Shown in pieces: positions 7,669 through 48,497 of a DNA stretch of 64,000 nucleotides. Position 1 is the stretch's first letter. Each line of letters opens with the position of its first letter. The DNA comes from Anaerolineae bacterium. GTDB lineage: Bacteria > Chloroflexota > Anaerolineae > Aggregatilineales > Phototrophicaceae. The stretch is taken from assembly GCA_022823945.1 (NCBI GenBank), contig JAJEBK010000012.1, forward strand, positions 1 to 64,000, written 5' to 3'. A program made the translations under genes and the position numbers. The notes under the pieces are model-generated. The model was given only the letters and a program-made list of their open reading frames with translations. It ran no database searches and had not been told where the DNA came from.

Positions 7669-7707
7669 CCCCCCACCCTAAATCCCTCCCCCAAACTGAG
7701 GGAGGGA
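7669..7707. repeat. C/G-rich hairpin element, type A (single copy)
   Basis: Reads CCACCCTAAATCCCTCCCCC followed by AAACTGAGGGAGGGA, a stem of CCCTCCC with GGGAGGG. It is the reverse complement of the second half of the composite elements at 26981-27090 and 34642-34747, with very few differences. It lies between rpsD and the PhyH gene; the rest of this 200-base gap shows no gene. Confidence 0.85.
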
Positions 7708-7779
7708 CTTTTCAATCCCGGCTGCTGTGGCTTTGCTTGATCTTCCCTGATATTGGGAGAAGAGACCGGAGATGGGAGT

Positions 7780-8625
7780 TCAAGCCGGCTTGTTCTCCAG
7801 CCTGCCCAGCCAGTAATGCACATCAAATTCGTTGTCGCCAGTCAAAAATCGCCACAGCTTGATGCGGTTGACGATCTCCAGGCGTCCGCTGGCCGCTTCG
7901 AACCAGGGCTCGCGCCGGCTGAGAATATCTTGTACGCCGCCATCTCGCGCATTGCGTGTATAAATCTCCCGCTGCGACTGGTAGCCCGGCTCCAGGTCTT
8001 GTGTATTCCACAAGCGCAGTTGGCGTACAGCCGGATTGAGGCGCAGCTTGAACATGTAACGGCGGCGGTCGGTTTTGTTTTGGCGTCCGCAGTGCCAGAT
8101 GCCGTGATGCAGCGCCAGCAGGGTGCCCGCCTTGCAGACCATGGCGATCTGCCCGCGCATATTCTGATAGGCGGCCACATCCATCTCGTTGACGCGGCGG
8201 AAGTGACTGCCGGGCAACAGCAATGTCCCGCCCATCTCCAGCGGCACATCGTGTGGGAAGTACATCAGTTGAATATCAAAATGCGTGCGCAGGTCAATGA
8301 TGGAGTCGGCATGCAAGCCCTGCGCCTTGCCTTCGTTGGGCTCGCGCACATGGATGGCATCGTGATCAAAAAGCGGATCTTCGCCGACCAGGCTTTGGAT
8401 CAAGCCTTGCACCTCGGGCAGGTCGAGCATGTGGCGCAGGGCGGTGCCGGCATAGCACTGTGAAAGTGGCGTACCGGCTGGCGCGCCTTTGATGGCTTGG
8501 CGGTCGATATCGCGCATGACCGCCTCGTTGATTTCCGCCGGCACCAGCTCGTCAAAGCGCAGGAAACCCCGCGCCACGAACTCCGCCATCTGCTGCGAAT
8601 TGAGCAAATGCTGTTTGTCGATCAT
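7780..8625 (-). CDS. phytanoyl-CoA dioxygenase (PhyH) family protein
   Basis: A 281-residue Fe(II)/2-oxoglutarate-dependent oxygenase. The iron-binding facial triad is visible as His105-x-Asp107 (GLHADS) and the distal His178 in GIWHCGRQNKT, followed by an arginine-rich stretch (TDRRRY) that can hold the 2-oxoglutarate carboxylate. Length fits bacterial PhyH proteins that hydroxylate small metabolites; substrate unknown. Its ATG overlaps the stop of an unknown 93-residue gene by 4 bases, which indicates translational coupling and a shared job in a three-gene minus-strand operon (9394 to 7780). Confidence 0.85.
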   Translation of the reverse strand: MIDKQHLLNSQQMAEFVARGFLRFDELVPAEINEAVMRDIDRQAIKGAPAGTPLSQCYAGTALRHMLDLPEVQGLIQSLVGEDPLFDHDAIHVREPNEGKAQGLHADSIIDLRTHFDIQLMYFPHDVPLEMGGTLLLPGSHFRRVNEMDVAAYQNMRGQIAMVCKAGTLLALHHGIWHCGRQNKTDRRRYMFKLRLNPAVRQLRLWNTQDLEPGYQSQREIYTRNARDGGVQDILSRREPWFEAASGRLEIVNRIKLWRFLTGDNEFDVHYWLGRLENKPA

Positions 8626-11977: not shown

Positions 11978-13438
11978 ATGACCTTGCAGCTATTCAATGT
12001 ATTGGGGCGGGAGAAGCAGCCCTTCACGCCGATTATCGATGGTCGCGTCGGCATGTATGTCTGCGGGCCGACCGTCTACGAACATTCGCATCTGGGACAT
12101 GCCAAGACTTATGTGTCCTTTGATGTCGTCGCGCGCTATCTGCGCTGGCGCGGCTATGAGCTGTTATATGTGCAGAATATCACCGATGTCGGGCATCTGC
12201 GCGAAAATGAAGAAGACCGCGTGCTGGTGCGCGCCGCCCAGCTCAATGCCAAGCCCATGCAGGTGGTGGAGACTTATACCCGCAGCTACTTTGAAGATAT
12301 GGACGCGCTGGGTGTGATGCGCCCCGATATCTCGCCGCGCGCTTCCGGTCATGTGCCCGAGCAGATTGAAATGATCGAGACCCTGCTGGCAAATGGCAAT
12401 GCCTATGTAGCCGATGGCAATGTCTATTTTGATGTGCGCAGCGATGAAGATTATGGCAAGCTGTCTAATCGGCGCGTCGAAGAGCAGCAAGACGAATCGC
12501 GCGAGTTGATCGGCAGCGACAAACTTCATCCAGCCGACTTCGCCTTGTGGAAGCGCGCTGAGCCAGAGCATATCCTGCGCTGGAATAGTCCCTGGGGCGA
12601 GGGCTTTCCGGGCTGGCACATCGAATGTTCGGCAATGGCCAAGAAATACCTGGGCGCAAACTTCGATATCCACGGCGGCGGCATCGACAATATCTATCCG
12701 CACAACGAAAACGAAATCGCCCAAAGCGAATGCGCCAATCACGCGGCTTTTGCCAACTACTGGATGCTGACCGGCAGCCTGAATGTGCTCGACCCCGACG
12801 AAGGCATCCCGGTCAAAATGAGCAAGTCGCTGGGCAACTACATCACAATCAAAGACGCGCTAAAAAACTGGAAGCCGCAAACCCTGCGCTACTTCATCCT
12901 GACTTCGCATTACAGCAGCCCGGTCGTCTATGGCGAAGAAGCGCTGGCATCGGCGAAGGCTGGCTGCGAGCGACTGATGAATGCCCGGCAGCTGGTCCTG
13001 CGCCAGTTGAACAGCGCGCCCGCAGGCGGGGCTGGCAATGGCTTCCTGGAGCGCCTGGACAAAGCGCAGACCGACTTCCGCGCGGTGATGGACGATGACT
13101 TCAATTCGCCACGCGGCATTGCTGTGCTGCAAGACCTGACGCGCGATGTCAACAGCCTGCTCAACAGCGCTGCCGAGATCGGCATCGACACCTTGGCGGC
13201 CATCAACGCGACTTATCAGGCTCTGGGCGGCGATGTATTGGGGCTGCTGGGGGACGAAGCGGCTGATGCGGGCGACAGTCAACGCGAGGCGGCGCTCATT
13301 GAATTGTTGGTAGAGATGCGCGCCCAAGCCCGCGCCCAGCGTGATTATGCGCGCAGCGACCAAATCCGCGATCAGTTGCTGGCGCTGGGCATCTCGCTGG
13401 AAGACCGGGCCGACGGCACGCTGTGGAAGCTGGTGTAG
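11978..13438 (+). CDS. cysS: cysteine-tRNA ligase
   Basis: A 486-residue class I aminoacyl-tRNA synthetase that charges tRNA-Cys. The signature HLGH (38-41) replaces HIGH, KMSKS is at 280-284, and Cys29 in YVCGPTVY is the first zinc ligand; the [19 protein letters not shown] zinc/tRNA segment is present, with NIYPHN where most enzymes have LxFPHH. The ATG at 11978 gives the usual N-terminus; the frame extends upstream but without similarity. A TACAAT hexamer at 11931-11936 could be its -10 box, with no convincing -35. Confidence 0.97.
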
Positions 13439-13448
13439 GGGTCTGGTC

Positions 13449-13597
13449 TACCCCCCTCGGCCCCCCATATCAATGGGGGGAAGGTTTCGCCGAGATCGGC
13501 ATCCAGTAGCGGAAACGCAGAGTCCGTGTAGATGTCAACGACCAGGTCGCCCTAGCTCCCCGCTCCGATGCCTCGGGGAGGGGCCGGGGGAGGGGTA
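13449..13597. repeat. composite C/G-rich element (two hairpins, terminal inverted repeats)
   Basis: The left hairpin TACCCCCCTCGGCCCCCCAT pairs its C-run with the ATGGGGGGAAGG that follows; the right hairpin is CTCCCCGCTCCGATGCCTCG with a G-rich arm GGGGAGGGGCCGGGGGAGGG. The outer ends (TACCCCCCTCGG and GGGGCCGGGGGAGGGGTA) are inverted relative to each other. The sequence 13444-13487 recurs inverted at 16713-16755 with one length difference. It fills the gap between cysS and the methyltransferase; no gene is seen there. Confidence 0.85.
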
Positions 13598-15954: not shown

Positions 15955-16377
15955 ATGCCCGAGTCACAGCCCAGTGGCGATATCAACCTGGCGCTGATCC
16001 AGATGGTGCAAGACGCGCGTCTGCTGCATGACGAGACGGCTCTGCCCAGTGACTATGCCGCTGTCTATTGGATCGAAGCCAAATGTCCCGATGGCGCTTT
16101 GCCTGCGCCGACCGCCCAGGCTGGCGAATGGCGCGTCTGCTTGCGCGCGGATGAGGTCGACAAAGCCTGGCAAAAAGTCAAAGAGGCGACTGTGGCAGGC
16201 AAACTGGGCTACAAGTCGAAAGTATCGACCCGTCCAGCCGCCGGCCAAGCGCACCCAGACCAGCGAATGCTGTGCGTCCGCACGGGCGATGCTCACGATG
16301 CGCAGGCTGTGGCGCGTATCAAAGCAGTCTTGCTGACGATGGGCCTGCGCGACCTGGTCTATGTGCCAGACAGCTAG
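15955..16377 (+). CDS. putative phosphothreonine-lyase-domain/Bles03-like protein
   Basis: A 140-residue soluble protein. YWIEAKCPDGA, GEWRVCLRADEVDKAWQKVK and GKLGYKSKVST resemble the small family annotated as putative phosphothreonine lyase domain (Bles03-like, DUF1917 group), whose biochemical role is not established. The match is by eye and moderate. The start is the ATG at 15955, 2 bases after pcm, so it shares the pcm transcript. It is followed by a 418-base gene-free stretch of repeats. Confidence 0.6.
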   Translation: MPESQPSGDINLALIQMVQDARLLHDETALPSDYAAVYWIEAKCPDGALPAPTAQAGEWRVCLRADEVDKAWQKVKEATVAGKLGYKSKVSTRPAAGQAHPDQRMLCVRTGDAHDAQAVARIKAVLLTMGLRDLVYVPDS

Positions 16378-16400: not shown

Positions 16401-16645
16401 ACAGGTCATGCTGAGGACAGGACAGTTTTTTCTACCCCATCCCCGGCCCTTCCCCATATCAATAGGGAAGGGTGACTCGTCGATTAACCTGTGCGATTAT
16501 TGCTAATCTGTAAGAAATCGAGCATCAGCATTTATCTTCTCTGAATGCGCTCCCCCTCCCTGATGCTTCGAGGAGGGGGTTGGGGGGTGGGGTAGACCCT
16601 CACATGCGCGCCCTTGGAACCTGTCCTGTTCTCAGACAGGTCATG
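16401..16645. mobile_element. MITE-like element with 15-bp inverted ends and a 10-bp flanking direct repeat
   Basis: CTGAGGACAGGACAG at 16411-16425 and CTGTCCTGTTCTCAG at 16621-16635 are inverted copies matching at 14 of 15 positions. They are flanked by a perfect direct repeat ACAGGTCATG at 16401-16410 and 16636-16645, as expected of a target-site duplication. Inside, TCTACCCCAT (16431) and GGGGTGGGGTAGA (ending 16596) form a second inverted pair enclosing two C/G-rich hairpins. No reading frame is present, so any movement would need a transposase from elsewhere. The right arm can also fold by itself (ACCTGT...ACAGGT), an alternative reading. Confidence 0.6.
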
Positions 16646-16712: not shown

Positions 16713-16755
16713 AAACCTTCCCCCCATTGATATGGGGGCCGAGGGGGGTAGACCA
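16713..16755. repeat. inverted second copy of the hairpin at 13444-13487
   Basis: AAACCTTCCCCCCATTGATA followed by TGGGGGCCGAGGGGGGTAGACCA is the reverse complement of 13444-13487 except for one G in a run. The hairpin pairs CCCCCCAT with ATGGGGG. It lies just downstream of metY, in the gene-free stretch 16378-16795 that otherwise contains only the MITE-like element. Confidence 0.9.
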
Positions 16756-24957: not shown

Positions 24958-26973
24958 ATGAAGAAATTGACAGGTACCGCGCTGATCTTGCTGCTGCTGA
25001 CATTTTTTGCGCAGGCGCAGCGCACGCCAGAACAGTTGTATGAAAACGATTTTCCCGCGCCCGAATTCCCACCCGGCCTGGACTGGATTAATATCGACGA
25101 GCCGCTGACTGTGGCCGGCTTGCAGGGCAAAATCGTCATCCTTGACTTTTGGACTTATGGCTGCGTCAACTGCCTGCACATTATCCCGGTGCTGGAGCAG
25201 GTGGAGACCAAATATGCTGACGAAGTGGTGGTCATCGGCGTACATTCCGCCAAGTTCGCAACAGAGGGCCAGACCGAAAATCTGCGCCAGATCGTCCAGC
25301 GCTATGAGGTGCATCACCCGGTCGTCAACGACAACGAATTCGCCATCTGGCGCAGTTATGGCGTGAATGCCTGGCCCACCGTCGCTCTTATCAATCCGCG
25401 CGGCAATCTGGTCGTCCGTCAGTCGGGCGAGATTCCTTTCGAGGCTTTTGACACCTACCTCAGCGGCATGATCGAGTATTATGACGGGCTGGATGAGACA
25501 CTGATCGACCGCACGCCCTTGCAATTGGCTCTGGAAGGCGCGAGCGACCTCGGCACGCCACTGCTTTATCCAGGCAAGGTGTTGGCGGATGCGGCGAGTG
25601 GTCGTCTATTCATCGCCGACAGCAGCCACAATCGCATCGTCATCGCCGATATAAACACGCACGAGGTGCTGGACATCATCGGTTCCGGCGCGCGTGGTTT
25701 TGCTGGCGGCACATTTGACGAGGCGCGCTTCGACAAGCCGCAGGGCATGGCGCTGGATGGCGACTGGCTCTATATCGCCGATGTCAACAACCATGCCATC
25801 CGCCTGGCAGATCTGGCCGCGCGCGAGGTCATGACTTTGGCTGGCAATGGCATCATGGGCCGCAGTCGCCTGCCCTTTGGGCAAAACATCCCCAACCCGC
25901 TGGGCGTCTCGCTGCGCAGCCCCTGGGATGTCGAACTGGACGATGCGGGCCACCTGCATATCGCCATGGCTGGCACGCACCAGCTTTATGTTTACGAGCC
26001 AGCCACCAACCGGCTCTTTCCGTCGGTCGGCAACGGGCGCGAAGCCAACCTGAATGGCGTCAGCCTGGCGGACAGCGAACTCGCCCAGCCCAGCGGTCTC
26101 TATTATGCCGGCGCGGGCAAACTATATTTCGCCGATAGCGAAAGCAGCACCATCCGCTTGGCCGACTTCGAGGCGGACCTGGTCAGCGTCGTCAGCGGCA
26201 CCACCGAAAACAGCCTATTCGACTTCGGAGACATAGATGGCGAGTTGGGGGCGAATCGCTTGCAGCACGCGCTGGGCATTGAGGGCGCGCCCGATGGCGC
26301 CCTGTATATCGCGGATACCTACAACAGCCGCATCAAGGTCATCCCGGCCGGCGAAACCGGCACGCAGACGCTGGCTGGGCTGGGCGGCGCTGGGGGATAT
26401 GCCGATGGACCTGTCAACCAGGCACAATTCGACGAACCCGGCGGCTTGAGCTTTGCAGAAGGCATCTTGTACATCGCCGATACCAACAACCATGTCATCC
26501 GCCTGCTCGATCTGGAAGCGGGCGCTGTCGACACGCTGCGTTTCCAAAATCCAGAAGCGCTGATCATCGATGCCGAGGCGCTGACCCTGCTGGGCGGAAA
26601 TCAAGGTGATGATGAGCTGACACGACTGGAGCCGCAGCAAGTCGCCGCCGGTGAGGGCGCGCTGAACTTGCAGCTGAGCTTCGCCGACGAGCTGAAGATC
26701 AACCCGCTCATCGACAGCCAGTTGGTGGTTACGCTGGATGGCGAGGCGCAGATAGAAGCTGCAGTGGCGCAGAATGTCTTCAGCCTGCCCATCATTTTTG
26801 TCGAGGGCAGCGGCAACCTGCAAGCCGAACTGACGCTCTACTATTGCCGGGAAGGCGCAGAAGCGCTGTGTTACATCGAAAGCGTCCGCTGGGAGATTCC
26901 TTATGAAACGGCGGAATCGGCAACGCAAAGCGAGATCGTGCTGGCGCGGCAGATCAATGCGCCGGAAGTGTAG
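24958..26973 (+). CDS. NHLRC2-like protein: thioredoxin-like domain plus NHL-repeat propeller
   Basis: A 671-residue exported protein. A hydrophobic N-terminal signal (MKKLTGTALILLLLTFFAQA) is followed by a TlpA/AhpC-like thioredoxin domain with Cys69-Val-Asn-Cys72 (FWTYGCVNCLHIIP), then NHL repeats from about 185 to 545 (IADSSHNRIVIADI, IADVNNHAIRLADL, IADTYNSRIKVI, IADTNNHVIRLLDL), and a C-terminal beta domain. This is the NHLRC2 architecture; bacterial function unknown, probably extracytoplasmic redox. The ATG at 24958 is 6 bases from AGGGAGG, better than the one at 24952 that overlaps it. Confidence 0.9.
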   Translation: MKKLTGTALILLLLTFFAQAQRTPEQLYENDFPAPEFPPGLDWINIDEPLTVAGLQGKIVILDFWTYGCVNCLHIIPVLEQVETKYADEVVVIGVHSAKFATEGQTENLRQIVQRYEVHHPVVNDNEFAIWRSYGVNAWPTVALINPRGNLVVRQSGEIPFEAFDTYLSGMIEYYDGLDETLIDRTPLQLALEGASDLGTPLLYPGKVLADAASGRLFIADSSHNRIVIADINTHEVLDIIGSGARGFAGGTFDEARFDKPQGMALDGDWLYIADVNNHAIRLADLAAREVMTLAGNGIMGRSRLPFGQNIPNPLGVSLRSPWDVELDDAGHLHIAMAGTHQLYVYEPATNRLFPSVGNGREANLNGVSLADSELAQPSGLYYAGAGKLYFADSESSTIRLADFEADLVSVVSGTTENSLFDFGDIDGELGANRLQHALGIEGAPDGALYIADTYNSRIKVIPAGETGTQTLAGLGGAGGYADGPVNQAQFDEPGGLSFAEGILYIADTNNHVIRLLDLEAGAVDTLRFQNPEALIIDAEALTLLGGNQGDDELTRLEPQQVAAGEGALNLQLSFADELKINPLIDSQLVVTLDGEAQIEAAVAQNVFSLPIIFVEGSGNLQAELTLYYCREGAEALCYIESVRWEIPYETAESATQSEIVLARQINAPEV

Positions 26974-26980
26974 GCGCTAT

Positions 26981-27090
26981 ACCCCCATCCCCGGCCCCTT
27001 CCCCCACAAGGAGGAAGGGGAGCTTAGGAATCCGAGATTTGCGCAAAATAAGACCCTCCCTCATTTTGGGGGAGGGGTTTGGGGTGGGGG
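26981..27090. repeat. composite C/G-rich element (type B plus type A hairpins) with a G-quadruplex motif
   Basis: The left half (B) starts ACCCCCATCCCCGGCCCCTT and returns AAGGAGGAAGGGGAGC; the right half (A) starts CCCTCCCTCATTTTGGGGGA and ends GGGTTTGGGGTGGGGG. The outermost ends are inverted relative to each other. The last 23 bases carry four G-runs of 4-5 with loops of 1, 3 and 1, an ideal intramolecular quadruplex motif. Almost the same composite occurs at 34642-34747. It fills the gap between two convergent genes. Confidence 0.9.
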
Positions 27091-27091
27091 T

Positions 27092-28069
27092 TCAGCGCGC
27101 GCCGATGACCACGCTGCCTTCGCGCAATTCGCCGCCGCGCACGAAAGCCATATCGACCGCAGTGCCCACTTTCAGCCGTGCCAGCGCCATCTGCAGTTCA
27201 TCAATATCGGTGATGGCTTCTTTGTCCAGCGCCACCAGGATATCGCCAACCAGCATGCCAGCCGAAGCTGCCGGGCTGTCCGTTTCTACCGAGACGACCA
27301 GCAAACCTGTCTCTTGTCCCAATTGTTCGACGATGGCATCGGGCAATTGCGCCGCCTGCACCCCCACGCCGATATATCCGCTGCGGATCTTGCCATCTTT
27401 CAAGAGCGCCGCGACCGAGCTACGCAAAGTAGACACGGGCACGGCGACGCCGACGCCCCCGCCGAAACCCGATGTAACCATGCCGTGGACGCCGCCATCT
27501 GCGCCGAGCAGGATGCCGCCGGAAAAACCGGGGTACATGGTGAGGTCCAGCTGCAGCAGCCCGTCTGCCAGCATGAAGCGGCCCCATTCTCTCATTCGTT
27601 TTCGCCATTTGTCATGCTGCCTGCGGGGTCGCTTCCTCTTGTGTAATTTTCCCATCCCCATTCGCAACCCCCGCCGGGCAGCTTGCGCCTGAACAATGCC
27701 GCTGACGATGCCGGCGCTGGCCCGGATGCGGCGTGGGCGCGCCACTGCCAATGCCAGATTGCCAACGCGCAAGCCCTCGTCCGTCGCCCAGTTCGCCGGT
27801 TTCAGCGCGCCTTCCACCCGTAGCAGCGCCAGGTCATTGCGCGGATCACGCCCGATCAGCCGGGCATCATGCTGCTCGCCATTCGCTGAACCGATCGTGA
27901 TGCCCTCGTCGCTTTCCACGACATGATGCGCGGTTACGACCAGGTCTTCTGCCCAGGCGATGCCGCTGGCCGGCAAGCGACGCCGTGCATCCACCCGCAG
28001 CACGCTGTCCGCAGCGTTCGCCACCAGGTCCGCCAGGTCGGTAGATAGCGTCTTCAGCGCTTCTGTCAT
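27092..28069 (-). CDS. HtrA/DegP-like serine protease with one PDZ domain and no export signal
   Basis: A 325-residue trypsin-fold protease. The triad is His49 (TAHHVVES), Asp79 (NDLALLRV) and Ser183 in YPGFSGGILL (relatives usually have GNSGG). A PDZ domain covers about 225-325 (GYIGVGVQA ... LVVSVETDSPAASAGMLVGD). Unlike most HtrA proteins there is no signal peptide or membrane anchor at the ATG at 28069, which has GGAGG 5 bases upstream. Residues 132-164 form a strongly basic insertion (KLHKRKRPRRQHDKWRKR) before the serine, absent from ordinary DegP. It probably acts in the cytoplasm. Confidence 0.82.
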   Translation of the reverse strand: MTEALKTLSTDLADLVANAADSVLRVDARRRLPASGIAWAEDLVVTAHHVVESDEGITIGSANGEQHDARLIGRDPRNDLALLRVEGALKPANWATDEGLRVGNLALAVARPRRIRASAGIVSGIVQAQAARRGLRMGMGKLHKRKRPRRQHDKWRKRMREWGRFMLADGLLQLDLTMYPGFSGGILLGADGGVHGMVTSGFGGGVGVAVPVSTLRSSVAALLKDGKIRSGYIGVGVQAAQLPDAIVEQLGQETGLLVVSVETDSPAASAGMLVGDILVALDKEAITDIDELQMALARLKVGTAVDMAFVRGGELREGSVVIGAR

Positions 28070-34544: not shown

Positions 34545-34641
34545 CACAAGCGGTCCGCCTGTCCATTCGGCATTTGCCAGTTCGAAATCTTTAGGCGGTA
34601 CTTGTATCGGGAGTGGTGATTGTAGTGGAGTTTACAACCCT

Positions 34642-34747
34642 GCCCCCATCCCCCAGCCCCTTGCCCCCAAAATGAGGGAAGGGGAGCACTACTACGTTTT
34701 GAAGTCCCTCCCTCACTTTGGGGGAGGGATTTAGGGTGGGGGGGGGG
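34642..34747. repeat. composite C/G-rich element (type B plus type A hairpins)
   Basis: Second copy of the composite at 26981-27090: B half GCCCCCATCCCCCAGCCCCT with AAATGAGGGAAGGGGAGC, a spacer, then A half CCCTCCCTCACTTTGGGGGA with a tail of G-runs ending in ten Gs at 34738-34747. It has the same order and orientation as the first copy. The remaining gap 34545-34821 contains no gene. Confidence 0.9.
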
Positions 34748-34821
34748 CATATCCACGATTCTCACCACTCCCCTTGTATCGCCCACAAACTGCCGTGATT
34801 CATCTGTGGTTTAATTGAGTC

Positions 34822-36030
34822 ATGCGGACCCTCCTGCTCATCTCGCGTTGCCCGCCCTATCCTGCGCATCTTGGCGATCGACTCATCATCTGGCATTTGG
34901 CGCGCGAGCTGCACAAACGCGGCATCATCATCGACTTGCTGGCGCTGCACGACTGCGCCGAAGATCTGCAAAACATCCACCATTACTGCGGGTTCTTCCG
35001 TTATATCCAGCTTATTCGCGAGACGCCTCGCAGCAACCTGGACTATTTGCGCCGCTTGTTCTTGCCGGGCGCGCGCTTTGCTTCCTCGTCCGTGTCGAGT
35101 TTTTGCCCAGCGCTTTGGCAGGCAATCGCCAACCGTCTCAGCCGCAATGAATATGATCTTGTGCATTGCTTCGGCAGCGTCACCGTGTATGAGTTCCTGC
35201 CACTTTTCGCCCACTTGCCCAGGCTGATCACGCCTTACGAGTCCCACAGCCTCTATCTGCGTTCTGCCGCGCAACAGGGTGACTTTCGCGCGCGTATCAT
35301 GCTGCCGCTGGTTCGGCGCTTTGAGCGCTTCATGTTCACGCCCTTCGACCGCACGATTGTCATTTCTGATGTTGACGCCGCTATGTTGCGCGACTTGCAA
35401 CCGGCTTTGCGAGTGGAGGTCATTCCCAATGGCATTGAACTCGCTCAATTCCGCCCGACCGCGCCCGACCGCGATAGCAACACATTGATCTTTGTGGGCA
35501 ACTTTGGTTATGCGCCCAATCAGGATGCGGCTCGTTTGTTGACAGCGCAGATTCTGCCAGCGGTGCGCGAGAAGCTGCCCGAGGCGCGATTGCAGCTGGT
35601 CGGCGCAAACCCGCCCGACTGGATGCGCGCGCTGGCGAATGAGCACATCGAAGTCACCGGCCGCGTACCCGACGTCGCCCCCTATCTGGCTGGCGCTGCT
35701 GTATTTGTGTGCCCGTTGCGCATCGGCGCGGGCTTGAAGAACAAAGTGCTGGAAGCGCTGGCTATGGGCACGCCGGTCGCCGCCACGCAGCTGAGCGTCG
35801 ATGGCATCGCAGTCCATCACCAAGAGTCGGCTTTGATTGCGCCGGTCGATCAACTGGCGGAGGCGGTGATTCGCCTGCTGGGCGACGAGGCGTTGGCTGC
35901 CAAATTGTCACAAAACGGCAGGCGACTGATTGAAACCAGCTATACCTGGGCGCGGACAGCGGATGCCTACGAGCGTCTGTATAGCAAGATCTGTCTCAAC
36001 AGACTCCCACCCCAAACCCCTTCCCCATAA
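34822..36030 (+). CDS. glycosyltransferase family 4 protein (PEP-CTERM/XrtA-type sugar transferase)
   Basis: A 402-residue GT-B enzyme: MRTLLLISRCPPYPAHLGDR at the N-terminus, VIPNGIELAQFRP and LIFVGNFGYAPNQDAARLL in the donor domain, and the conserved PLRIGAGLKNKVLEALAMGT loop with the E-x7-E-like glutamate. This start and loop resemble the group annotated as TIGR03087 PEP-CTERM/XrtA-associated transferases, but no exosortase gene is nearby. The last 10 residues (RLPPQTPSP and stop) are encoded by a C/G-rich repeat element, so the natural end may have been displaced. Followed by a repeat-derived terminator. Confidence 0.87.
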   Translation: MRTLLLISRCPPYPAHLGDRLIIWHLARELHKRGIIIDLLALHDCAEDLQNIHHYCGFFRYIQLIRETPRSNLDYLRRLFLPGARFASSSVSSFCPALWQAIANRLSRNEYDLVHCFGSVTVYEFLPLFAHLPRLITPYESHSLYLRSAAQQGDFRARIMLPLVRRFERFMFTPFDRTIVISDVDAAMLRDLQPALRVEVIPNGIELAQFRPTAPDRDSNTLIFVGNFGYAPNQDAARLLTAQILPAVREKLPEARLQLVGANPPDWMRALANEHIEVTGRVPDVAPYLAGAAVFVCPLRIGAGLKNKVLEALAMGTPVAATQLSVDGIAVHHQESALIAPVDQLAEAVIRLLGDEALAAKLSQNGRRLIETSYTWARTADAYERLYSKICLNRLPPQTPSP

Positions 36031-36180
36031 AGAGGGAGGGGCTTTTTGCCACCACCTCAAACCCCTCCCCAGCGCTCTGTGTCTACGCGACCCAAGATGA
36101 GGGAGGAGAATCATTCTACAATCTCGGGTTCCTTAGCTCCTCTTTCCTCCTCGTGGGGGAAGGGGCCGGGGGATGGGGGT
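36005..36180. repeat. inverted composite of C/G-rich elements
   Basis: Order A' (36007-36041, CCCACCCCAAACCCCTTCCC), a second A'-like piece (36053-36110) and B' (36134-36180, GGGGGAAGGGGCCGGGGGAT). The B' part is the reverse complement of the B halves elsewhere. The right end contains four G-runs (5, 4, 5, 5) with short loops. It holds no gene and overlaps the last codons of the GT4 gene. Confidence 0.85.
36017..36047 (+). terminator. Rho-independent terminator formed by the repeat
   Basis: CCCCTTCCC (36017-36025) pairs with GGGAGGGG (36034-36041), with one bulged T, and is followed by CTTTTT. The GT4 stop codon TAA (36028-36030) lies in its loop. Confidence 0.6.
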
Positions 36181-37308: not shown

Positions 37309-37341
37309 GCCCCTCCCACTTTATGGGGATGGGGTGGGGGT
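37309..37341. repeat. short C/G-rich element overlapping a gene end
   Basis: GCCCCTCCCACTTTATGGGG followed by ATGGGGTGGGGG is a degenerate copy of the A hairpin. The lipoprotein stop and last codons are written in its right arm. Confidence 0.7.
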
Positions 37342-37887
37342 CGCCGCCAGGTTATCGAAATGCAGCTGAAATACCGTGCAGACATCGCTGTGCGAGCCGA
37401 CATAGACATAGCTGATTGTGTCGCCCATATAGGTCAACGAGCCGGCTTCTGCGCAGGGATCAATGCTCACATTCTGGGCGCTGGCATTGCCTTCTTGCCC
37501 GCCCAACGCGCAGTTGATGAGCTCCTGGTTGATGCGCGACTGGTTGATCACCAAGGCTGCGCCGACGCGCGGCGTCAACAGGTTGGAGCTGTCTTCTTGA
37601 TAAAAACGAGCGGCGATCGCGCCTCGATCCTGGAAGCACTGCAAGATCTGCTCCAGCTTGGCGATCGCGGCTGTTACGCCGATTTGCCCGCCGACCAACG
37701 CCGCCCCGCCCACCGCCGCGAACGCGCCATCAATGGTCGTGTCGACATCTGTGGCGCTGTATGCCGCCAGATTGGGCAGCAGACGTTGCGCCGATGTGGC
37801 ATCGTTGGCGACATTGCCCGTCTCGCTGCAAGCCGACAGCATGGGCAGCAGCAGGCACAGCAACGCGAACAGGTGTAGCGGTTTCAA
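37321..37887 (-). CDS. lipoprotein of unknown function
   Basis: A 188-residue lipoprotein. The signal peptide MKPLHLFALLCLLLPMLSAC ends in the lipobox LSAC, so Cys20 should be lipidated. The mature part is Ala/Asn/Thr-rich with further cysteines (Cys114, Cys135, Cys144 region) that may form disulfides; no known domain is visible. It starts with TTG at 37887, 8 bases after AGGAG. The C-terminal TPTPSP and stop are encoded by the G-rich repeat 37309-37341. It is upstream of the GH172-like gene and probably cotranscribed. Confidence 0.78.
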   Translation of the reverse strand: MKPLHLFALLCLLLPMLSACSETGNVANDATSAQRLLPNLAAYSATDVDTTIDGAFAAVGGAALVGGQIGVTAAIAKLEQILQCFQDRGAIAARFYQEDSSNLLTPRVGAALVINQSRINQELINCALGGQEGNASAQNVSIDPCAEAGSLTYMGDTISYVYVGSHSDVCTVFQLHFDNLAATPTPSP

Positions 37888-37956: not shown

Positions 37957-38003
37957 GCCCCCATCCCCCGGCCCCTTGCCCCCAAAATGAGAGAAGGGGA
38001 GGC
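37957..38003. repeat. C/G-rich hairpin element, type B
   Basis: GCCCCCATCCCCCGGCCCCT followed by TGCCCCCAAAATGAGAGAAGGGGAGGC, matching the B halves at 34642 and 26981. It lies in the 227-base gap between the divergent lipoprotein and FAH genes, where I see nothing else apart from a possible -10 TACACT at 38070. Confidence 0.85.
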
Positions 38004-38114: not shown

Positions 38115-38921
38115 ATGAAGCTGCTGCGTTATGAAATTGATGGCGAAGTGCATATCGGCATCCTGAACGGCGAGACAATTCAGCGACTGCGGACAAGCGA
38201 CATGCGCGAACTAATGTCTGGCGCGCCGCAAACCACTGGCGATACCGACGAGCCAGGCACCGTGAAGATTCTGCCGCCGCTGCTGCCCGGCAAGATCTTG
38301 GCGATCGGCCGCAATTACGCCGAACACGCGCGCGAGCTGGACAATGAAGTCCCGCAAGAGCCGCTGGTCTTCGCAGTCATGCCCAGCGCGGTCATCGGGC
38401 ATGGCGATACGATCGAATGGGAGCGGGCAATCACCCAGCAGGTCGATTGGGAAGGCGAGCTGGCGGTCGTCATCGGGGCGACGGCGCGCAAGCTCAGCGA
38501 GGCCGACGCGCTGGATGTCGTCTTCGGCTACACGATCGCCAACGATGTTTCGGCGCGGGATTTGCAGACGCGCGACAAACAATGGACGCGCGCCAAAGGC
38601 ATGGACACCTTCTGCCCGCTGGGTCCCTGTGTCGTGACCACCGATGACATCTCCGACCCGCAGGCGCTGCAAATCGTGACGATGGTCGACGGGGTTGAAA
38701 AACAAAATGGTCGCACAGCCGACATGATCTTCAGTGTGCGCCGGCTGATTGCGCATTTGTCGCGCGCTTTCACGCTGAATCCCGGCGACATCATCCTGAC
38801 CGGCACCCCATCGGGCGTGGGCAAGGCGCAGAAGCCGCCACAATTCCTGACCACCGGCAGCGAAGTCAGCATCAGCATCGCGGAAATCGGCAAATTGACC
38901 AATCCCTGCCGCGTGTTATAA
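38115..38921 (+). CDS. fumarylacetoacetate hydrolase family protein
   Basis: A 268-residue FAH-fold enzyme; members are hydrolases, isomerases or decarboxylases of beta-keto or hydroxymuconate-type acids. The fold signature is present: ILAIGRNYAEHARELDNEVP at 65-84, the metal-ligand glutamates in VDWEGELAVVIG, then YTIANDVSARDLQTRD, KGMDTFCPLGPCVV and GDIILTGTPSGVG. The exact substrate is unknown. The ATG at 38115 starts MKLLRYE, the usual opening. The last 85 bases, including a promoter, are duplicated downstream at 39176-39260. Confidence 0.9.
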   Translation: MKLLRYEIDGEVHIGILNGETIQRLRTSDMRELMSGAPQTTGDTDEPGTVKILPPLLPGKILAIGRNYAEHARELDNEVPQEPLVFAVMPSAVIGHGDTIEWERAITQQVDWEGELAVVIGATARKLSEADALDVVFGYTIANDVSARDLQTRDKQWTRAKGMDTFCPLGPCVVTTDDISDPQALQIVTMVDGVEKQNGRTADMIFSVRRLIAHLSRAFTLNPGDIILTGTPSGVGKAQKPPQFLTTGSEVSISIAEIGKLTNPCRVL

Positions 38922-38925
38922 TTGG
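38841..38925. repeat. 85-bp direct repeat, copy 1 (3' end of the FAH gene with promoter)
   Basis: Matches 39176-39260 at 84 of 85 positions (GGAAATCGG against GGGAATCGG). It covers the last 27 codons of the FAH gene and a sigma-70 promoter. Confidence 0.95.
38895..38922 (+). promoter_or_regulatory. promoter embedded in the FAH 3' end, copy 1
   Basis: TTGACC (38895-38900), a 16-base spacer and a perfect TATAAT (38917-38922). The FAH stop TAA (38919-38921) is part of the -10 box. Drives the 65-residue gene 34 bases further on. Confidence 0.8.
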
Positions 38926-38955
38926 TGACAGAATCTACCCTGGGGACAAGATAAC

Positions 38956-39153
38956 ATGGCGAGTCAGCAGAACGTACTGGGCAATGAGCCGGCCATCAGG
39001 GAACGGCTGACGAAGGTGGAAACTCAGGTAGAAGGCATATTGCAGCACTTTACCACCAAGGCCGACCTCGAGCGGCAGACGCGCCTTCTCGTGATGTGGA
39101 TGATAGCAACTCAGCTTGCATTGGCTGCTTTCCTGTATTCCGTCCTGCGGTAA
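38956..39153 (+). CDS. small membrane protein with N-terminal coiled coil, copy 1
   Basis: A 65-residue protein: residues about 11-36 are an amphipathic helix (IRERLTKVETQVEGILQHF), followed by TTKADLERQTRLLVMWMIATQ and a hydrophobic C-terminal segment. It is a predicted tail-anchored membrane protein; function unknown, loosely like phage holin-associated XhlA-type proteins. GGGGA lies 9 bases before the ATG. It has a paralogue next door and shares with it the motif TKADxERQTRLxVMWxIATQ. Confidence 0.7.
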   Translation: MASQQNVLGNEPAIRERLTKVETQVEGILQHFTTKADLERQTRLLVMWMIATQLALAAFLYSVLR

Positions 39154-39175
39154 CTTGGGTAAGTCGCTGTCGCCG

Positions 39176-39260
39176 CAATTCCTGACCACCGGCAGCGAAG
39201 TCAGCATCAGCATCGCGGGAATCGGCAAATTGACCAATCCCTGCCGCGTGTTATAATTGG
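39176..39260. repeat. 85-bp direct repeat, copy 2
   Basis: Second copy of the FAH 3' end; no FAH coding context remains, as the reading frame is cut off upstream. The two copies are much closer to each other than the two small genes that follow them. Confidence 0.95.
39230..39257 (+). promoter_or_regulatory. duplicated promoter, copy 2
   Basis: TTGACC (39230-39235), 16 bases, TATAAT (39252-39257), identical to copy 1. It lies 30 bases upstream of the second small gene. Confidence 0.8.
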
Positions 39261-39287
39261 CGCAAGCCGAAAGATGAGGGACAAGCA

Positions 39288-39518
39288 ATGGCTAGCGCGG
39301 GGAATACCATGCACCAGGAGGCATCGCTGCTTGAAAGGGTGACCAGGCTGGAAATGACCGACGAAAAAGTCCTGCCGCACTTTGCCACCAAAGCAGATAT
39401 GGAGCGGCAGACGCGCCTTATTGTGATGTGGGTGATTGCGACTCAGATTGCGGTTGTCGGCATGATGATTACACTGTTTGGCATTGCTGTTGCCTTGTTC
39501 CTGAACTACGCGCGATAG
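39288..39518 (+). CDS. small membrane protein with N-terminal coiled coil, copy 2
   Basis: A 76-residue paralogue of the previous small protein: helix EASLLERVTRLEMTDEKVLP, then TKADMERQTRLIVMWVIATQ and a 25-residue hydrophobic C-terminus (MITLFGIAVALFLNYAR). GAGGGA lies 6 bases before the ATG. The N-terminal part has diverged, the transmembrane boundary is conserved. Function unknown. It is 32 bases ahead of the methyltransferase gene. Confidence 0.7.
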   Translation: MASAGNTMHQEASLLERVTRLEMTDEKVLPHFATKADMERQTRLIVMWVIATQIAVVGMMITLFGIAVALFLNYAR

Positions 39519-48454: not shown

Positions 48455-48497
48455 GAACCCCCGCCCTTACTCTGATGAGGGAGCCGTGGGGGTGGCA
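48455..48497. repeat. short C/G-rich element at the 3' end of the Usp-DUF389 gene
   Basis: AACCCCCGCCCTTACTCTGA followed by TGAGGGAGCCGTGGGGGTGG is a degenerate A-type hairpin. On the minus strand it supplies the last codons (PTAPSSE) and the stop of the neighbouring gene. Confidence 0.65.

Follow-up and report, generated by a model that had tools for sequence, protein, structure and literature searches.

Palindromic, quadruplex-capable repeats of an Anaerolineae genus, partly carried by IS1-family MITEs and found at gene ends and in frame within genes

The repeats described here are best explained as a genus-specific palindromic family of about 100 bases, capable by sequence of forming G-quadruplexes. 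In the reading that we prefer, to which we give a probability of roughly 0.7, part of the family is carried as cargo by an IS1-family MITE, while naked cores lie in frame within genes or at gene ends, where they would serve as interchangeable hairpins. The window, by which we mean the whole stretch of 64,000 nucleotides analyzed, comes from a genome of 3.51 Mb in 55 contigs that is 94% complete; its genes were taken from a simple codon-usage caller, and 86% of the window is coding. An earlier note on this DNA had described dispersed double hairpins bearing quadruplex motifs and had interpreted them as a mobile or MITE-like family that may act on transcription ends or replication. The observation as a whole is confirmed and the interpretation as a whole is partly supported. 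No report of this repeat family was found in the open-access literature searched.

All 11 intervals that had been described as hairpins were read and folded, and each proved to be a C/G-rich hairpin or hairpin pair where it had been placed. The claimed association with G-quadruplex (G4) motifs was also borne out, with 11 of the 13 motifs in the 64-kb window (type G3-5/N1-7) lying inside the listed elements, whereas 20 first-order Markov sequences with the composition of the window gave a mean of 1.1 motifs and at most 4. It is on the 11 folded intervals and on this G4 excess that the observation stands. The elements have the four G-runs and short loops of a quadruplex-forming sequence; when RNA folding took quadruplexes into account, the quadruplex won in only one of six strands. 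Most G4 motifs of the window derive from one repeat superfamily, and G4 counts here therefore need not imply G4 function.

In the core of the family, a short spacer separates two C/G-run halves in inverted orientation; each half measures about 40 nt and combines a hairpin with a quadruplex-capable tract. The composites at 26981-27090, 34642-34747 and 36005-36180 are, as had been claimed, a B-half (CCCCCATCCCCCGGCCCCTT-CCCCC..GGGAAGGGGAG) followed by an inverted A-half (CCCCCACCCCAAACCCCTCCCCC..GGGAGGGGCTT), although the second of these is the interior of a longer element at 34609-34772. Repeat elements are on the plus strand unless marked otherwise. The gap between the convergent stop codons at 26973 and 27092 is taken up by a naked core (26982-27090), and an inverted, enlarged composite core occupies a convergent junction at 36006-36178 (minus strand), where the genes abut in most congeners. 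This composite carries the new stop of the gene at 34822-36030 (TAA, 36028-36030), and its insertion has replaced a glycosyltransferase end, which now reads ...CLNRLPPQTPSP within the element and ...CAPT in the congener G341. Two further intervals are related composites, again as claimed: a longer one at 16431-16596 (HMM and folding), flanked by convergent genes whose ends lie at 16377 and 16796, and one with a CCCCCCATATCAATGGGGGG hairpin at 13449-13597, downstream of the gene at 11978-13438.

The intervals that had been listed as single halves fared unevenly. Two belong to the family by HMM: a single A-half (7669-7707; 7669-7710 in our delimitation), 72 nt downstream of the stop of the gene at 7780-8625 (minus), and a single B-half at 37957-38003 between divergent genes, which is absent in the congeners G003 and G341. 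The half at 37309-37341, a near match recognized by its inverted repeat, supplies the gene at 37321-37887 (minus) with its C-terminal PTPSP and its stop; two window elements in all overlap coding sequence in this way, providing a gene's C-terminus and stop. The other three intervals belong to other hairpin families. At 2093-2207 a direct-repeat search found three tandem copies (CCCCCTGACTCGTCGGGGGGACTGAGGGGG) in units of 38-40 bp, between flanking genes that end at 2034 and start at 2284; 16713-16755, found by inverted-repeat search, is a single inverted hairpin of the type seen at 13452-13492; and 48455-48497, in a convergent-gene gap (48439, 48467), is a weakly related hairpin with no half-element HMM match. 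A search of known RNA families returned only the two tRNAs. Elsewhere in the window, next to the gene at 38115-38921, a local tandem duplication is seen at 38836-39451; its direct repeats, spaced by about 335 bp, match at 98% identity over 90 nt and at 84% over 79 nt.

A separate small structure lies within the composite at 36006-36178, namely a constant-loop micro-hairpin (GGGTCGCGTAGACACAGAGCGC; 36072-36093, minus strand). Micro-hairpins of the form xxxx-GCGTAGACAC-N-x'x'x'x' are found inside palindromes of several unrelated families, in their loops, and are sometimes self-nested; apart from the window, they were seen at loci L285, L286, L290, L178, L180, L190, L247 and others. The 4-bp stem covaries (GGTC/GACC, GGGC/GCCC, CCGC/GCGG, CTGC/GCAG, GTGC/GCAC, GGTT/AACC, GCGC/GCGC), and pairing reaches 3.64 of 4 over 11 distinct stems, compared with 2.33 for shuffled partners (largest of 5000, 3.36). 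The open-access literature searched held no report of this motif.

A genome-wide search with the two halves, which the earlier note had proposed, found the family dispersed well beyond the window. BLAST with the 112-nt core (26981-27092) gave at least 46 matches in the 3.51-Mb genome, 40 of the 209 first-look candidates having been scored. The exact B-half pattern gave 70 listed matches, which include double counts from an optional base and correspond to 53-54 distinct sites, against none for the reversed pattern. For the G-strand of the A-half, with up to two mismatches, there were 104 matches and 52 in a reversed-pattern control; a pattern so close to a palindrome does not give a clean control. 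A half-element HMM run over 484 kb found 241 halves in 136 clusters, counts that cover about 0.48 Mb of one genome in stretches picked for containing the element. A converging pair was present in 99 of the 100 multi-half clusters, and clusters of exactly two halves were almost uniform (94 of 95 converging, one tandem, none diverging). The cores form length classes according to their spacer, which mostly measures 18, 25-29 or 75-81 nt.

The distribution among genomes points in the same way to a family of the genus. The core (E < 1e-5) was found in 25 of the 25 genus genomes first searched and in 6 of 13 other genera sampled in the order, whereas 4 of 300 other Chloroflexota genomes had matches, and these were of half size. 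Among 84,980 species, the exact composite pattern occurred in 50 contig stretches, all of them from Chloroflexota/Anaerolineae MAGs. Some of their isolate names (COS, RHO, CAR) appear to resemble those of sponge metagenomes, for example those of a study of coral-reef demosponges (PMC8163846).

Evidence of mobility comes from a subset of copies with the outer inverted ends GGGAGTGG(T/C)GA, seen in the flanks of full-length copies. The window element at 34609-34772 (164 bp) is an IS1-family MITE with GGGAGTGG ends and a perfect 8-bp target duplication, CTTGTATC, at 34601-34608 and 34773-34780. Its left terminal inverted repeat (34609-34639, GGGAGTGGTGATTGTAGTGG...) agrees with the IS1 left end at 18 of 26 positions and is identical over the first 11; its right terminal inverted repeat lies at 34743-34772 (minus strand, reverse complement GGGAGTGGTGAGAATCGTGG...), and between the two sits a double-hairpin/G4 core at 34644-34742 (B-half 34644-34686, A-half 34705-34742; HMM and folding). 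The congener G003 has a precise empty site, GGCGGTA-CTGGTATC-GTCCACAA, with a single copy of the target, where the window reads CTTGTATC-[164 bp]-CTTGTATC. Across 31 candidate copies, some of whose end placements are probably false, the 8-bp flanks agreed with a mean identity of 0.488, compared with 0.256 (sd 0.031, largest 0.363) in 2000 re-pairings of left and right flanks. The signal was strongest at 8 bp and weaker at 7 bp, with other lengths within the re-pairing range, and four copies, the window copy among them, have perfect 8/8 flanks.

A plausible parent is also present. At the end of contig C17 (G000:C17:95658-96451; loci L081/L146) lies a 794-bp IS1-family element with the same GGGAGTGG ends, arranged in two frames as in IS1 and interrupted by one in-frame stop, whose product matches the IS1 transposase model NF033558 in two parts, the N part at E = 3e-26 and the C part at 5e-9, both short of the curated cut-off. 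The end of this element recurs twice more at contig breaks (L162, L165), which makes it probable that the element is multi-copy. In an order-mate genome, IS1 elements have ends of a related type and are flanked by duplications of 8-9 bp. The MITE ends share their first 11 bases with those of the IS1 element and agree at 16-20 of 26 positions with its left end, the better of the two. It is plausible that an IS1-family transposase, acting in trans, moves the MITE form. The description of the family as mobile or MITE-like holds for the GGGAGTGG-ended copies, which have 8-bp duplications, a precise empty site and, in the same genome, an IS1-family partner that shares their ends; for the naked cores it is no more than possible.

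These naked cores, which make up 57-58 of the two-half clusters, have no outer end. In 57 of them no consistent target duplication was seen (best z 3.5 over 275 combinations), and we reject core-only transposition with a fixed duplication length on this ground; nor does IS1-type transposition account for the naked cores, given this lack of a consistent duplication. Another group of cores is flanked by a second outer-end type, around GGCTTGTCCGCTA, with no duplication seen by eye in several copies, so the core exists in at least three settings: within IS1-type ends, within GGCTTGTCCGCTA-type ends, and naked. Ends of the GGCTTGTCCGCTA type also bound coreless elements at L056:2525-2940 and L113:9747-10019, the former holding a transposase-like 460-bp relic with no Pfam or NCBIfam match.

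That all elements lie between genes or at gene ends is true of the window and not of the genome as a whole. For nine clusters, more than half of the length falls inside a predicted gene, and five naked cores lie in frame well inside four conserved genes: aldehyde/xanthine-oxidoreductase-like (L084, two cores), sulfatase (L073), hydantoinase-like (L055) and sortilin/BNR-repeat (L143). The inserted peptide is of the type PHPKSLPQNEGGTS...SPSL..GEGAGGWG, and both inserts of the L084 protein fall outside the aligned parts in its best solved relatives. When joined flanks were compared with those of four congeners, length modulo 3 was equal in all species at all five coding sites, unlike at three intergenic sites. 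The core is shared by G003 at three coding sites and by G014 at one, with sequence differences that make an assembly error unlikely. At other coding sites G014, G341 and G343 are empty, and at some, G341 and G343 have a different hairpin family where the core would be, down to the codon position. In L073, species without the core have five native codons (e.g., ETAHE, KTEQE) where filled species have it, which looks like replacement and not duplication. Twelve more cores lie inside predicted genes among 197 loci of relatives, not a random sample, some being orthologues of the four genes; they include further in-frame cores from other congeners. In one related MAG (L174:3602-5783, minus strand), the core peptide fuses two ABC-transporter ATPases into a single 727-aa reading frame.

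These insertions count in favor of a reading of the family as selfish palindromes like those of Rickettsia, in which the naked core would itself be the mobile unit, inserting with no target duplication, and the IS1 and 'GGCTTGTCCGC' outer ends would be later captures. All five internal cores, in unrelated enzymes, run A-half first in an identical reading frame, the same core occurs in two outer-end types and alone, and a 91% identical core was found in an unrelated context. However, no naked core had an unambiguous empty site from which its ends could be defined, and non-coding copies keep that frame open at 0.53 compared with 0.46 for shuffles, which is not beyond chance. The same comparison showed no sign that selection keeps a reading frame open in every copy. 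We regard this reading as possible but unlikely, at about one chance in four.

Gene ends are the other recurrent location, and they invite a reading of the elements as ordinary bidirectional terminators under selection, similar to one another through recombination and mobile only incidentally. GC hairpins next to stop codons were indeed found. In tandem gaps (29 cases), the median distance of a naked core is 15 nt to the stop codon before it and 76 nt to the start codon after it (p = 0.014). Of 55 typed cases, 38 have the A-half turned towards the upstream stop (p = 0.006), and an element is present in 16 of 22 convergent gaps compared with 100 of 212 others (Fisher p = 0.026), an enrichment biased by the choice of loci that hold elements. 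IS1-type copies, with their own ends subtracted, show a like 3' tendency (16 cases, p = 0.022), and since they share the bias of the naked copies, selection against upstream insertions could explain the position without any terminator role. The hairpins are poor in T-runs, those downstream being weak and inconsistent with no conserved run seen; the T fraction after the A-half is 0.32 downstream and 0.25 upstream, and the B-half has no excess. Furthermore, perfect duplications, a clean empty site, cores within IS1-type ends and copies inside genes all count against terminators as a full account, which we consider improbable and somewhat behind that of selfish palindromes.

One junction nevertheless speaks for such a use, its hairpin being conserved in presence and changing in identity. 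The element at 26982-27090 separates a thioredoxin/NHL protein gene from a trypsin-PDZ protease gene, which are convergent in congeners also. At the corresponding junction, most species have a GGGCGACnCA..TGnGTCGCCCCTAC palindrome; G003 has the core with one additional half, G012 has one A-half alone, and G341 has a hairpin of the form CCCCC-TGACTTTTCG-GGGGG. Over 21 such gaps from 21 species, the median folding z was -2.7, with 14 below -2. This exchange of families suggests turnover of interchangeable hairpins and, as far as sequence comparison can indicate, a terminator-like use. The junction loci with the GGGCGACnCA..TGnGTCGCCCCTAC palindrome are L273, L275-L277, L280, L282-L286, L289, L291, L293, L296 and L297, and the same palindrome occurs in the window's own genome (G000, loci L113 and L118). 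Conversely, the site of 36006-36178 has abutting genes without any hairpin in most congeners, which counts against hairpin necessity. The suggestion that the elements may act on transcription ends thus draws indirect support from stop-codon proximity, orientation bias and hairpin turnover at this one convergent junction, the T-runs being weak. No result of the analysis spoke for or against a role in replication.

Far less probable is an origin as REP/BIME-type repeats mobilized by a REP-associated tyrosine transposase (RAYT), although the palindromes are short, intergenic, high in copy number and paired in opposite orientation; we reject it on the missing Y1_Tnp (PF01797) protein, not found in this 94% complete genome while control genomes gave matches, and the mobile copies have 8-bp target duplications and DDE-type inverted ends. 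Independent origin of low-complexity C/G runs by replication slippage, to which only the extreme composition lends itself, has a negligible probability and is refuted by the shared loops and spacers, the fixed inverted order, the target duplications and the empty site.

Returning to the preferred reading of a palindromic family that is partly MITE cargo, we propose that insertions would survive where they are harmless, directly after stop codons and in permissive protein loops. Gene-end hairpins may then act as interchangeable, often two-way transcription-end structures, and this interchangeability would let one hairpin family replace another at one spot, while insertion into coding sequence appears to replace a few native codons rather than duplicate a target. 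A bolder and doubtful extension, which we hold at rather long odds, is that fixed positions such as gene junctions and codon positions in enzymes are sockets that exchange palindromic families without target duplication, perhaps through recombination templated by hairpins or quadruplexes; copies would be seeded by IS1 transposition and then relocated by a second process, in frame within genes.

The MITE form resembles IS1-family insertion sequences and the MITEs derived from them in its inverted ends, common to an IS1-family element of the same genome, its 8-bp duplication, its non-coding length of about 160-180 bp and its precise empty site. Unlike IS-derived MITEs, the bulk of it is an unrelated double-hairpin core that exists outside MITEs too, and its ends follow those of the IS1 element closely over 11 bases only. 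We found no described family of this kind from Chloroflexota in the literature searched. The MITE part would thus be a further member of an already known class, and what appears to be new is its combination with naked, family-swapping and partly in-frame copies.

Other known repeats share single features with the family. REP/BIME sequences with their RAYT (PMC2817692, PMC3733652) are likewise dispersed, paired palindromes of high copy number, but here no RAYT was found and mobile copies have 8-bp duplications. Quadruplex-forming repeats of Xanthomonas and Nostoc (PMC4692102) are also dispersed, G4-capable and bacterial; those, however, are simple sequence repeats, whereas the G-tracts here are arms of a structured, partly mobile palindrome. 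The SPRITE and RUP elements of Streptococcus pneumoniae (PMC10969869) are similarly small, terminator-like, clustered and nested. The repeats of the present family differ from them in having no canonical T-run. The two are not known to be related in sequence.

In-frame palindromic insertions are best known in Rickettsia and its kin. The Rickettsia palindromic elements (RPE; Ogata et al. 2000, 2002), summarized in PMC10969869, are like the present repeats in being palindromic, about 100-150 bp long and in frame in unrelated metabolic genes, with several families per genome and a conserved inserted peptide. As a kind, the defining feature is found here as well, a palindromic repeat in frame in protein genes with a preferred frame (five sites, four genes). 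The likeness is one of kind, and it is limited by the other phylum, the G4 capability, the small share of clusters well inside genes (5 of 136), the part that is IS1-type MITE cargo, and sites that change family between species. This would be a second, apparently unrelated case of in-frame palindromes, in an uncultured Chloroflexota genus with more than 30 congeneric genomes, alignable sites and a plausible parent transposon, and such a system would allow us to ask how repeats enter genes, whether the peptides are tolerated or used, and whether gene-end repeats become interchangeable terminators.
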